Shown here piece by piece: positions 1,754 through 5,230 of a stretch of DNA of 64,000 nt. A program made the translations under genes and the position numbers. Source of the DNA: Micromonospora ureilytica. Its GTDB lineage: Bacteria; Actinomycetota; Actinomycetes; Mycobacteriales; Micromonosporaceae. Under the pieces are notes generated by a model. That model made no database searches and was not told the DNA's origin. It saw nothing but the letters and a program-made list of their open reading frames with translations. The stretch covers positions 248,001-312,000 of the forward strand of contig NZ_JADOTX010000001.1 in the NCBI RefSeq assembly GCF_015751765.1, written 5' to 3'. Every line of letters begins with the position of its first letter. Position 1 is the stretch's first letter.

Positions 1754-2749
1754 TCAGCCGGCGGTGACGACCGTGGCGGCGGCGCGGGCGTCGATGGCCT
1801 GCTGGTAGAGCCGACCGGCCCGGTACGACGAACGCACCAGTGGCCCGCTCATCACCCCGGCGAAGCCGATCTCCTCGGCCTCCTCGCGCAGCTCCACGAA
1901 CTCCTCCGGCTTGACCCAGCGGGTCACCGGGTGGTGCCGGGGCGAGGGACGCAGGTACTGCGTGATGGTGATCAGCTCGCAGCCGGCGTCGTGCAGGTCG
2001 CGCAGCGCCTGCGAGACCTCGGCCCGCTCCTCGCCCATGCCCAGGATGAGGTTGCTCTTGGTGACCAGACCGTCGGCGCGGGCCTGCCGGATCACGTCCA
2101 GCGAACGGTCGTAGCGGAACGCCGGCCGGATGCGCTTGAAGATGCGCGGCACGGTCTCCACGTTGTGCGCCAGCACCTCGGGACGGGAGCCGAAGACCTC
2201 GGCCAACTGCTCGGGGACGGCGTTGAAGTCCGGGATCAGCAGCTCGACGCCGCAGCCGGGCTGGAGGGCGTGGATCTGTCGGACGGTCTCGGCGTACAGC
2301 CAGGCGCCGCCGTCGGGCAGGTCGTCACGGGCGACACCGGTGATGGTGGCGTAGCGCAGCCCCATCGAGACCACCGACTCGGCGACGCGGCGCGGCTCGT
2401 CCGCGTCGAACTCGGCAGGCTTGCCGGTGTCGATCTGGCAGAAGTCGCAGCGCCGGGTGCACTGGTCACCGCCGATGAGGAAGGTGGCCTCCCGGTCTTC
2501 CCAACACTCGTAGATGTTGGGGCAGCCGGCCTCCTGGCAGACGGTGTGCAGCCCCTCGCGCGAGACGAGCCCGCGCAGCTGGGTGTACTCCGGGCCCATC
2601 TTGGCCTTGACCTTGATCCACGGCGGTTTGCGCTCGATCGGCGTCTCGGCGTTACGCGCCTCGATCCGCAGCAGGCGCCGCCCCTCGGGGGCCGCCGTTG
2701 CGGTGCGCGCTGCCTGGCCGGTCGTCGGCGCGGAGTGCTCGATCGTCAC
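1754..2749 (-). CDS. lipA: Lipoyl synthase
   Basis: Radical-SAM enzyme that inserts two sulfurs into protein-bound octanoyl groups to make lipoyl cofactor. It has both iron-sulfur signatures: the auxiliary cluster cysteines in [12 protein letters not shown] and the SAM-cluster motif CTRRCDFC. It also has the C-terminal RSSYRAG segment whose serine ligates the auxiliary cluster. Length of 331 residues is normal for the family. The start is GTG at 2749. It acts with LipB (4528-5169, same strand) on the E2 lipoyl domains such as those of SucB at 15-17 kb. In mycobacteria lipB and lipA adjoin; here a synthetase gene on the other strand lies between them. Confidence 0.95.
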
Positions 2750-2929
2750 GAAAACGAGCCTACGCCGGACGGCAGGTGTCTATGTGCGTCAGGCGACCGG
2801 CGTCACGCCCCGAACGTTGTGACGCCGGACACCGCTCGGTCAGAAAAGGGCGTCATAAAGCGGGGGATCGGGTGCTACGGTCGCCGGCAACAGCGACGAC
2901 GGAGCCGAGTAGCGCACCGCCCCGCCAGT

Positions 2930-3164
2930 GCAGAGAGCCGCCGGTGCTGAGAGGCGGTCTGGCGCCGGGGCGCGAAGACCCTCCCGAGCTGCGGGAAGAA
3001 CGGCCGCGGGCCCCCCGCGCCCAGTAGAGCCCGCCCGGCTGGCCCCGGTCATCAGGCGACGAACGAGGCCCCCGCTTCGGCGGGGGCGAAGGTGTGGTGG
3101 CACCGCGAGGTTCCCGCTCGCCCACACCTCCCTGGGGCTGATGCGACGCTTCGCTTCCCCAGGG
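2930..3164 (+). promoter_or_regulatory. T-box leader, tRNA-Asp-specific (GAC specifier)
   Basis: Leader of the aspartyl-tRNA synthetase at 3203. Stem I landmarks are visible: AGAGAG at 2932-2937, GGTGCTGAGAGGC at 2943-2955, and GAA-GAC-CCTCCCGAG at 2974-2988, where GAC (2977-2979) sits in the specifier position. The T-box core TGGCACCGCG is at 3098-3107. The antiterminator fold is complete: arm 3091-3097 pairs with 3122-3128, arm GCGAG 3105-3109 pairs with CTCGC 3117-3121, leaving the canonical 7-nt bulge TGGCACC (3098-3104). TGGC would pair with GCCA, the acceptor end of a tRNA with G73, as tRNA-Asp has. An 8-bp GC hairpin (3130-3137/3157-3164) follows, without a T-run, so termination versus translational control is unresolved. 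Confidence 0.88.
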
Positions 3165-3202
3165 CGGCGACGGCGTGGCGATCAACCGAGGAGCAGCCCG
3201 CC

Positions 3203-4489
3203 ATGCAACGAACCCTGTCCCACCAACTGCCCGCCAGGATCGGCACGACAGTGCGGATCGCCGGCTGGGTGCACCGCCGCCGACTGCTCAAGTCGGTGGC
3301 GTTCCTGATCGTGCGGGACGCCGCCGGCCTGGCCCAGGTGGTCGTCACCGACCTGGCCGTCCGCGCCGAGCTGGAGAAACTCACCGAAGAGACGGTCGTC
3401 GAGGTGGTCGGCACGGCAACGCCCAACGGCACGGCGCCCGCCGGGGTCGAGCTGACCGACCCGACGGTACGTCCACTCGGGCCGCCCGCCACGCCGCCAC
3501 CGTTCGACCTGTACCGGCCGGCGCTCACCGCGAGCCTGCCCACCCAGCTGGACAACGCGCCCACCGCGCTGCGGCACCCCACCCGGTCGGCCGCGCTGCG
3601 GATCTCGGCGGCCGCAGTGGCCGGGTTCCGGGCCACACTCGACGCCCACGACTTCGTGGAGATCCACACGCCGAAGGTGGTCAGCTCCAGCACCGAGAGC
3701 GGAGCGAACGTGTTCGCGCTGGACTGGTTCGGCCGGCCCGCGTACCTGGCCCAGTCACCGCAGTTCTACAAGCAGCTGATGGTCGGCGTCTTCGAACGGG
3801 TCTACGAGGTGGGGCCGGTCTTTCGCGCCGAGCCGCACGACACCGTCCGGCACCTCGCGCAGTACACGTCGCTCGACGCGGAGCTGGGCTTCGTCACCGA
3901 CCACCGGGACGTGATGCGCGTACTGCGCGACACAGTGGCCGGGATGCTGGACGCGGTGAACGGGCGGGCCGGCAGCGCTCTCGCGACGCTCGGCGTCACG
4001 CCGCCGCAGGTGCCGGCGGAGATCCCGGCCGTGCACTTCACCGAGGCGCTGACCATCGCCGGCGCGCCCGCCGACGAGCCGGACCTCGCGCCCGCCCACG
4101 AACGGGCTCTGGGTGAGTGGGCCCTGCGCGAACACGGTTCGGACTTCCTTTTCGTCACCGGCTACCCGATGGCGAAGCGACCCTTCTACACCCACCCGGA
4201 CCCGGCGCGGCCCGCGTACTCGAACGGTTTTGACCTGCTCTTTCGCGGTCTGGAGCTGGTCACCGGTGGGCAGCGGCTGCACCGGCACGCCGACTACCTG
4301 GCGGCGTTGGCGGCCCGGGGTGAGCCGGTCGAGCCGTACGTCGGCTACCTGGACGCGTTCCGGCACGGCATGCCACCGCACGGCGGCTTCGCCATCGGCC
4401 TGGAACGGTTCGTGGCCCGGCTGGTCGGCGCCGCCAACGTCCGGGAGGTCACCGCGTTCCCACGTGACCTGCACCGACTGACGCCGTGA
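3203..4489 (+). CDS. aspS: Aspartate--tRNA ligase, short (archaeal-type/AspRS2-like)
   Basis: Class IIb aminoacyl-tRNA synthetase of 428 residues, well short of the usual bacterial AspRS of near 590, because the GAD insertion domain is absent. The N-terminal OB-fold anticodon-binding domain covers about residues 1-105. Motif 2 reads FRAEPHDTVRHLAQYTSLD and motif 3 GFAIGLERFVARL. This is the AspRS2/archaeal form, often annotated as aspartate--tRNA(Asp/Asn) ligase; whether it also charges tRNA-Asn cannot be read here. Start ATG 3203 has GAGGAG at 3189-3193 at good spacing; upstream in-frame codons lie inside the T-box. The gene sits on the opposite strand between lipA and lipB and ends at a bidirectional terminator. 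It is probably a second AspRS besides a full-length copy elsewhere (inference). Confidence 0.9.
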   Translation: MQRTLSHQLPARIGTTVRIAGWVHRRRLLKSVAFLIVRDAAGLAQVVVTDLAVRAELEKLTEETVVEVVGTATPNGTAPAGVELTDPTVRPLGPPATPPPFDLYRPALTASLPTQLDNAPTALRHPTRSAALRISAAAVAGFRATLDAHDFVEIHTPKVVSSSTESGANVFALDWFGRPAYLAQSPQFYKQLMVGVFERVYEVGPVFRAEPHDTVRHLAQYTSLDAELGFVTDHRDVMRVLRDTVAGMLDAVNGRAGSALATLGVTPPQVPAEIPAVHFTEALTIAGAPADEPDLAPAHERALGEWALREHGSDFLFVTGYPMAKRPFYTHPDPARPAYSNGFDLLFRGLELVTGGQRLHRHADYLAALAARGEPVEPYVGYLDAFRHGMPPHGGFAIGLERFVARLVGAANVREVTAFPRDLHRLTP

Positions 4490-4527: not shown

Positions 4528-5169
4528 TCAGACCTCGACGAGGGTGGAGAGTCGGCGCTCGACCACCGGCAGCACGTCGGCGACGGTGATCGGGCGGCCC
4601 AGCTCGGCGGTGAGCGAGGTGACGCCCGCGTCCCGGATGCCGCACGGCACGATCCGGTCGAAGTACGTCAGGTCGCAGTCGCAGTTGATCGAGAAGCCGT
4701 GCAGGGTGACGCCCCGGGCCACCCGGATGCCGATGGCGGCCACCTTGCGGGCCGGCCCTCGGTCGTCCTCGGGCACCCAGACGCCGCTGCGCCCCTCGAC
4801 CCGTCCGGCGGTCAGCCCGACCTCGGCGCAGACGTCGATGAGCAGCTCTTCGGTCCGGCGTACGTAGGCGACCACGTCCACCGGGTCGGGCAGACGCAGG
4901 ATCGGGTAGCCGACGAGCTGCCCCGGCCCATGCCAGGTGATCTTGCCACCGCGGTCCACGTCCACGACCGGAGTGCCGTCCATCGGCCGGTCCCACGGCT
5001 CGGTGCGCTTGCCCGCTGTGTAGACGCTCGGGTGCTCCAGCAGCAGCACGGTGTCGCCGCGCTCGCCAGCCACCACCGACTCGTGCAGGCGCCGCTGCTC
5101 GTCCCAGGCGGCCTGGTAGTCGAGCAGGCCGGCACGGACGGCCGTCAGGCCGGGGGTCGTCGTTGTCAC
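4528..5169 (-). CDS. lipB: Octanoyltransferase LipB
   Basis: Transfers octanoate from acyl carrier protein to lipoyl domains, the step before LipA. The family hallmarks are present: the [16 protein letters not shown] region, the catalytic lysine in ARKVAAIGI, and the catalytic cysteine in [14 protein letters not shown]. About 213 residues from GTG 5169, whose protein begins [19 protein letters not shown] as in relatives. ATG at 5202 would add 11 residues and is the alternative. A TAGGCT -10-like box lies just upstream of 5169, so the transcript could be nearly leaderless. It serves the same pathway as lipA but is separated from it by the T-box-aspS unit. Confidence 0.93.
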
Positions 5170-5230
5170 GGCATCCAGCCTAGTCCCGCTACCGGCGATC
5201 ATCCCTGGTGAGCCGCCTCACCGGGCTCGG

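Follow-up and report, generated by a model that had tools for sequence, protein, structure and literature searches.

A second gene for aspartyl-tRNA synthetase, aspS2, lies within a 64,000-nucleotide stretch of the Micromonospora ureilytica genome (hereafter the window), and it raises the question of which signal controls this gene and when the cell would call on its product, AspRS2, given that an ordinary bacterial AspRS of 604 aa (AspRS1) is also encoded in the genome. The initial annotation had assigned a tRNA-Asp T-box to a short AspRS that it took to be the second synthetase, and our results bear this out: the leader matches the Rfam T-box model RF00230, the protein scores above the cut-off of family NF003483, the tRNA-Asp of this genome carries G73, and AspRS1 is found beside AspRS2. 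The leader combines a codon-bearing specifier loop, a UGGN bulge that matches the discriminator base and a downstream gene for the same amino acid (Table 1). From these sequence features, we consider it likely that the leader is an aspartate-specific T-box riboswitch, which would raise the second AspRS as uncharged tRNA-Asp accumulates.

Table 1. Features of the aspS2 locus (window positions).
Feature	Position	Strand	Evidence or remark
lipA, neighbour	1754..2749	-	TIGR00510, 324.2 vs 310.25
Possible -10 element TACGGT	2876..2881	+	just 5' of leader; weak
T-box leader RNA	2887..3128	+	RF00230, 39.7 bits
Full-length Stem I	2895..2991	+	model R1, 91.4 bits; R1 alignment includes the window sequence itself
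Stem I basal helix	GGAG 2901-2904 / CUCC 2981-2984	+	invariant motifs, covariation
Stem I motifs	AGUA 2908-2911, AGAGA 2932-2936, distal GCUG 2946-2949	+
Specifier triplet GAC (Asp)	2977-2979	+	directly after GAA 2974-2976, one base before CUCC 2981-2984
Stem II, GCGGG/CCCGC with S-turn-like GAAGAA ... AGUAGA	2991..3034	+	assigned by hand on Rfam alignment
Stem IIA/B pseudoknot, CGG/CCG, loop GCC with GGC	3036..3057	+	assigned by hand after Rfam alignment
Stem III, GCCCCCGC UUCG GCGGGGGC	3068..3087	+	Rfam alignment, folding
Antiterminator/antisequestrator	3091..3128	+	A1 3091-3097/3122-3128, bulge 3098-3104, A2 3105-3109/3117-3121
T-box bulge UGGCACC	3098-3104	+	flanked by GGUGUGG 3091-3097 and GCGAG 3105-3109
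Anti-Shine-Dalgarno strand CACCUCC	3125..3131	+	family-wide pairing; weak in window sequence
Extra hairpin CCCUGGGG...CCCCAGGG	3130..3164	+	between A1 and Shine-Dalgarno; only part of related leaders
Shine-Dalgarno GAGGAG	3188..3193	+
aspS2, archaeal-type, probably non-discriminating AspRS, 428 aa	3203..4489	+	NF003483, 525.3 bits vs cut-off 353
lipB, neighbour	4528..5202	-	NF010925, 355.6 vs 155

A covariance model search with RF00230, by which the initial annotation had proposed to check its T-box, gave a match over all 219 model positions (1-219), but its score of 39.7 bits is below the gathering score of 93 bits, and a gathering-level scan of the window therefore came out empty. The match had an E value of 2.4e-7 for the 601 bases searched and of 6.7e-7 in the 7.1 Mb genome, where it was the top of three. 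None of 16 aspS2 leaders tested reached Rfam's own curated cut-off, which thus misses all 16; at an E value of 0.01, sub-cut-off matches were obtained in 5 of 11 aspS2 loci, and the six without a match include all five ultrashort leaders (see below) of this set. The folding stability of the leader did not exceed that of dinucleotide shuffles (z -0.01), so the case for a T-box rests on the covariance match together with conservation. In Stem I, 14 of 19 predicted pairs had at least one sequence in which both sides were changed and the pair was kept, among 28 aligned sequences; these were chosen from the 38 representatives left after 111 leaders with a full Stem I had been clustered. The strands of helix A1 covary between lineages. 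The span first proposed, 2930..3202, had to be corrected: the leader begins near 2887, about 43 bases earlier, and that span had missed the 5' strand of Stem I, including the AGUA motif. TA...T words similar to TACGGT were seen by eye before some other leaders, and no sigma-70 consensus site was found near the leader.

The specificity for aspartate follows from the codon and the bulge. The initial annotation had read GAC as the specifier, UGGCACC as the bulge and UGGC as the complement of a GCCA acceptor end in tRNA-Asp, and each of these readings held. The position of the bulge could be read off and agrees with the RF00230 match, and the specifier is backed by the RF00230 alignment and by the register of other leaders. 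In aligned aspS2 leaders, a single C or A separates GAC from the basal helix strand (CUCC in the window); in ileS leaders found with the Stem I model R1, AUC is followed by one base and then mostly CCCC. Since the spacing to the basal helix is equal, the two groups share the same specifier register, and the open reading frames behind the ileS leaders scored best with the ileS family where tested. The tRNA-Asp of the genome has the anticodon GUC and, as it ends in G73, its GCCA end can pair with the bulge UGGC. The tRNA-Asn of the same genome also has G73, so the bulge alone cannot tell the two tRNAs apart, and it is the codon that separates them. Among 175 distinct leaders, the bulge was UGGCACC in 163, UGGUACC in 6, UGGCACA in 5 and UGGCAUC in 1, the search pattern admitting only such forms. 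UGGCACA was seen at loci L189, L195, L196, L284, L285 and L208, and UGGCAUC at L104, where the aspS2 match is limited to residues 1-405; at L052, the 3' half of the T-box is missing. A second tRNA-Asp gene, with G73 and an encoded CCA end, lies in an array of 19 tRNA genes in the M. ureilytica genome (C1:3631735-3633609; L169:3735-5610).

In the mechanism that we propose, GAC in Stem I is placed to read the GUC anticodon, and the UGGC bulge matches the G73CCA end; other actinomycetes have both features in their leaders as well. Uncharged tRNA-Asp would stabilise the antisequestrator helix A1; with A1 formed, CACCUCC would be kept off the Shine-Dalgarno sequence and AspRS2 would be translated. 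Charged tRNA-Asp could not fill the bulge, in which case CACCUCC would pair with GGAGG and translation would fall. With the housekeeping AspRS1 blocked or lacking aspartate, AspRS2 would thereby bring charging back, and induction upon failure of AspRS1 is the likely role of aspS2.

Whether such a role amounts to a producer's shield can be judged from the distribution of the gene. aspS2 was present in 201 of 250 genomes of the family (E 1e-50), with AspRS2 93 to 96% identical in the closest named relatives, all Micromonospora. Among 80 named loci compared, lipA stood just upstream of aspS2 on the opposite strand in all 76 from Micromonosporaceae, with 260 to 1069 bases between its near end and the start of aspS2. 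lipB was found downstream in 72 of these 76, at most 1.7 kb from the aspS2 start in 30 of the 72 and up to 4.3 kb in the others; at the four loci that lack it, the sequence available downstream is shorter than 1.5 kb. The remaining four loci, from Nonomuraea and Actinacidiphila, have neither lipA nor lipB by aspS2. The conservation of the lipA-aspS2 locus speaks for old inheritance within the family, and the presence of the gene in most family genomes, beside lipA at every locus examined, argues that aspS2 is not a self-resistance gene of one cluster. The suggestion of a self-protection AspRS, made in the initial annotation, was not supported: a producer's shield agrees less well with these data than a general back-up that would step in when AspRS fails, be it through inhibitors or for want of aspartate. 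Protection from inhibitors by AspRS2 is plausible.

The alternative that survives best, to which we would give not quite an even chance, is plain nutritional feedback, with AspRS2 as a second housekeeping enzyme that is raised in aspartate shortage and has no link to inhibitors. The wide occurrence of aspS2 in the family, at one locus, agrees with this reading, and no link to an inhibitor or a gene cluster was met at the aspS2 locus itself. Against it stands the retention of AspRS1. Thirty genomes were compared, and each of the 27 that encode a second archaeal-type AspRS (26 with a close aspS2, and genome G430) had an AspRS1 match with an E value of at most 1.6e-152, and AspRS1 was also kept in two family members without aspS2. 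The second archaeal-type AspRS of G430 is 38% identical to AspRS2 and stands behind a T-box of the same type. In G443, the archaeal-type AspRS has no T-box, and no AspRS1 match was better than 4.5e-22. Thus, in the genomes examined, T-box control goes with a spare copy of AspRS. Furthermore, of 394 genomes from the class, 36 matched AspRS2, 21 of them at 62 to 100% identity (3 from the same genus and 18 from elsewhere) and 15 at 33 to 38%; in one genus of another family, aspS2 was patchy, with 66 of 196 genomes. Close aspS2 genes are thus rare outside the family and scattered, as for an optional function. The nutritional reading is also opposed by the T-box on a second serS gene. Three aspS2 genes, at L187, L197 and L287, have no recognisable T-box, which counts against the main reading and indicates that this control can be lost; none was recognised at L191 either, where only 237 bases lie upstream.

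The serS observation comes from locus L218 (genome G472), where a serine T-box with codon UCC, a full-length Stem I and the bulge UGGCACC precedes the second serS. At L217 (G306), a full-length Stem I with UCC precedes a short serS remnant, and no bulge was found. The M. ureilytica genome itself has two ileS genes, and the leaders of both give T-box matches of 28 to 29 bits, below the threshold (L007, C1:2030558-2030739; L008, C1:6995518-6995688). The T-box on the second serS and the T-box-like leaders of both ileS genes lend some support to the idea of AspRS2 as a back-up.

To our knowledge, no inhibitor has been described for the AspRS1/AspRS2 pair. Second synthetases that shield producers include SerRS for albomycin, IleRS for mupirocin and TrpRS for indolmycin, according to PMC9437257. 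Like these, AspRS2 is an extra, divergent copy beside the housekeeping enzyme; the difference is that its control is a T-box. Microcin C shows AspRS to be a natural target, and its inhibition leaves tRNA-Asp uncharged (PMC7136475), so inhibition of AspRS would give the very signal that the aspS2 leader would read. Should AspRS2 prove tolerant of AspRS inhibitors, the leader would be the sign of an inducible tolerance that is otherwise concealed, and it might lead to natural inhibitors of AspRS.

The step by which the T-box would act on expression is the least certain part of the explanation, as the sequestrator pairing is weak in the window. The 3' strand of A1 runs into CACCUCC, which is able to pair with GGAGG before the start codon. 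No terminator was found on the + strand of 2740-3260, and a U-tract terminator as the output was accordingly discarded for the region around the leader. With A1 disabled in folding calculations, the partner of the Shine-Dalgarno sequence was the 3' strand of A1 with the nucleotides behind it (p >= 0.5) in 20 of 37 leaders; the 37 include L125, L126 and L128, with a misplaced start or Shine-Dalgarno sequence. It was paired with any partner at 0.70 or above in 21 of the 37. The window leader is outside the 20: its Shine-Dalgarno pairing was 0.58, mostly with another partner, and in several leaders (e.g. L117, L119 and L124) another local hairpin pairs this sequence. Since Shine-Dalgarno pairing differed by 0.1 or less between A1 free and A1 disabled in 32 of the 37 leaders, the folds show that sequestration is possible and do not show a switch. 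In a permutation test with 40 hand-chosen leaders, uncorrected for relatedness, the duplexes of anti-Shine-Dalgarno strands with their own Shine-Dalgarno sequences had a mean of -12.7 kcal/mol, vs -11.0 (sd 0.3) for permuted pairs, and 0 of 5000 permutations were as low. The duplex of the window had -8.4 kcal/mol and ranked 30th of 40 possible Shine-Dalgarno partners. From the missing terminator and the pairing in the 20 leaders, the folding models suggest that the control of aspS2 is probably translational.

Actinobacterial ileS T-boxes are likewise thought to act on translation (PMC1262725), and sequestration of the Shine-Dalgarno sequence, proposed here for the aspS2 leader, is the output that they would share (PMC1262725, PMC7583486). 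They differ from the aspS2 leader in codon and bulge, with AUC vs GAC and UGGU vs UGGC, and Stem II would not fit into some of the related aspS2 leaders. The window leader has a full-length Stem I, as do only few of the translational T-boxes described in PMC7583486. That a GC-rich hairpin lacking a U tract attenuates transcription, if only in the group of leaders that shares the extra hairpin of the window, is unlikely in our judgment. This hairpin is stable, and the weakness of the window's sequestrator would suit such an output. However, no terminator-like site was detected on the + strand. The hairpin occurs where some 107 bases separate the bulge from the start and is missing where this distance is about 73, and relatives that lack it keep a strong sequestrator, such as the nine consecutive anti-Shine-Dalgarno/Shine-Dalgarno pairs in L127 and L130.

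AspRS2 could also serve the supply of asparagine, as a non-discriminating enzyme that makes Asp-tRNA-Asn for GatCAB, with a T-box that follows tRNA-Asn; we regard this as improbable. The enzyme itself would suit the role. AspRS2 belongs to NF003483, the archaeal-type aspartate--tRNA(Asn) ligase family, its score with TIGR00458 (336.8) is under the cut-off of that family (368.4), and the closest solved structure is Thermus AspRS2 (1n9w). In favour of the main reading, all 15 aspS2 enzymes compared have preserved their catalytic motifs 2 and 3; the G430 and G443 enzymes deviate in motif 3. The His of Thermus AspRS2 occurs in 14 of the 15 aspS2 enzymes and the Pro in 15 of 15; we take these residues to be markers of relaxed specificity, and AspRS2 is probably non-discriminating. 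One search of the genome for AsnRS found none at E <= 0.001, and the G73 of tRNA-Asn would suit the bulge. However, the triplet is GAC and not AAC in leaders with both types of Stem I, by which tRNA-Asn was rejected as the ligand, and the neighbours of aspS2 in the window are lipA and lipB rather than gat genes. Moreover, AspRS1 presumably already serves tRNA-Asn, since no AsnRS was found. A precedent for a T-box that follows tRNA-Asn is reportedly the AspRS2-GatCAB operon of Clostridium acetobutylicum, which contains gatCAB and has Asn/Glu codons. There too, one of several aspS genes is under a T-box (PMC4206432, PMC2494555), the difference being that the aspS2 gene studied here is a single gene with GAC.

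Chance resemblance in a GC-rich leader, to which the sub-threshold Rfam score and the lack of excess folding energy might point, is practically out of the question, as the same motifs precede aspS2 in several families and their helices covary.

The aspS2 leaders of relatives differ in architecture. From 199 loci, 16 duplicates and 8 without a recognisable bulge were set aside, leaving the 175 leaders that were classed; L194, at a contig end, was left out of the T-box assessment. A full Stem I with a gap of at least 90 bases between specifier and bulge, which holds Stem II, was found in 88, as in the window, whose full Stem I with AGAGA and GCUG places it outside Class II (short Stem I). In 23 leaders with a full Stem I, the gap is at most 70 bases and leaves no room for Stem II, a class drawn by gap length from the full Stem I leaders, whose members thus have Stem I by definition. 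Gap lengths fall into two groups (56-66 vs 95-192). A further 57 leaders are ultrashort candidates, 54 of them with a GC-rich hairpin, and 7 are others. The constancy of GAC within classes is partly built in, as the class patterns contain GAAGAC (full) or GAC hairpins (ultrashort). Independent checks come from model R1, which found other codons before other genes, and from counts of hairpin tetramers: UGAC sits in a correctly spaced hairpin of four pairs in 51 of the 57 ultrashort candidates, the next-best UNNN tetramer in 3 of 57, and mononucleotide shuffles gave a mean of 0.9 and a maximum of 5. The stem of the UGAC hairpin varies (GAGG/CCUC, GGGG/CCCC, GGAG/CUCC, GGGA/UCCC and others). A stretch resembling Stem IIA/B matched, as a sequence pattern only, in 48 of 58 ultrashort candidates, and a Stem II with an S-turn was seen by eye only in L126 among them. 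The statement that every leader has at least one of the two modules was given up, with L277 lacking a clear hairpin and L278 lacking the IIA/B-like stretch.

Model R1, run over 71 loci, gave 8 matches with E <0.1, all to a full Stem I or to a piece of one (L121, at a contig end). A 27-base match in L126 (16.3 bits, E 0.2) spans the two ends of the model, as expected if the middle of Stem I was deleted. On a tree of 61 AspRS proteins, with changes counted without direction, the ultrashort label required four changes, all forced by well supported branches, among 10 rows so labelled, of which L132 and L202 are weak examples. The label of a full Stem I without Stem II required seven changes, five of them forced. 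Clearer hairpins back three ultrashort origins: L126, Catellatospora (L103 and L106) and the f29/f39 clade. L126 and its sister L128 differ in leader architecture within one family, and replacement of leaders by recombination may lie behind such differences.

Parallels for these forms are known from other T-boxes. Actinobacterial ileS T-boxes have a long, intermediate or ultrashort Stem I, and the short ones carry the codon in the apical loop (PMC7583486). Glycine T-boxes lack Stem II, which has been explained by the strong pairing of codon and anticodon, GGC:GCC (PMC7583486). The glyQS T-boxes described there resemble the Actinoplanes-type aspS2 leaders in having a full Stem I without Stem II. 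They differ in ligand and output, being glycine-specific and transcriptional, and GAC:GUC would not match the pairing strength of GGC:GCC. The aspS2 leaders suggest that an explanation of Stem II loss by the strength of the glycine codon does not reach far enough. We tentatively put forward a wider reading, which is possible and would be the less expected outcome: that one orthologous tRNA-Asp riboswitch has been rebuilt repeatedly, with the elbow-gripping Stem I cut to a UGAC hairpin in several lineages and Stem II dropped in others that keep a full Stem I, so that the grips of the T-box are interchangeable. This riboswitch and the T-boxes on the second serS and on both ileS genes would then belong to a scheme general among actinomycetes, with spare synthetases that tolerate inhibitors being turned on by uncharged tRNA.

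The initial annotation had called an aspartate T-box unusual in actinobacteria, and we met none from this group in the literature searched, although one survey counts 32 T-boxes in actinobacteria. For TBDB, a model of translational T-boxes was run on the genomes of actinobacteria (PMC7778990), and its entries may include the leaders described here. Loss of Stem II with an Asp codon was likewise not met in the literature searched. Studies of T-boxes have drawn mainly on those for glycine and isoleucine. In the aspS2 leaders, gene and codon stay constant and the architecture ranges from a full Stem I with Stem II, through forms too short to hold Stem II, to a minimal hairpin, so that the contribution of every grip on the tRNA becomes measurable in orthologues that share a ligand. 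Finally, inspection by eye showed a repeat of the GGAAGGGCCCC type in the region of Stem II in the Micromonospora leaders L051, L064, L069, L084, L090, L093, L095 and L096, in all of which the bulge is kept.
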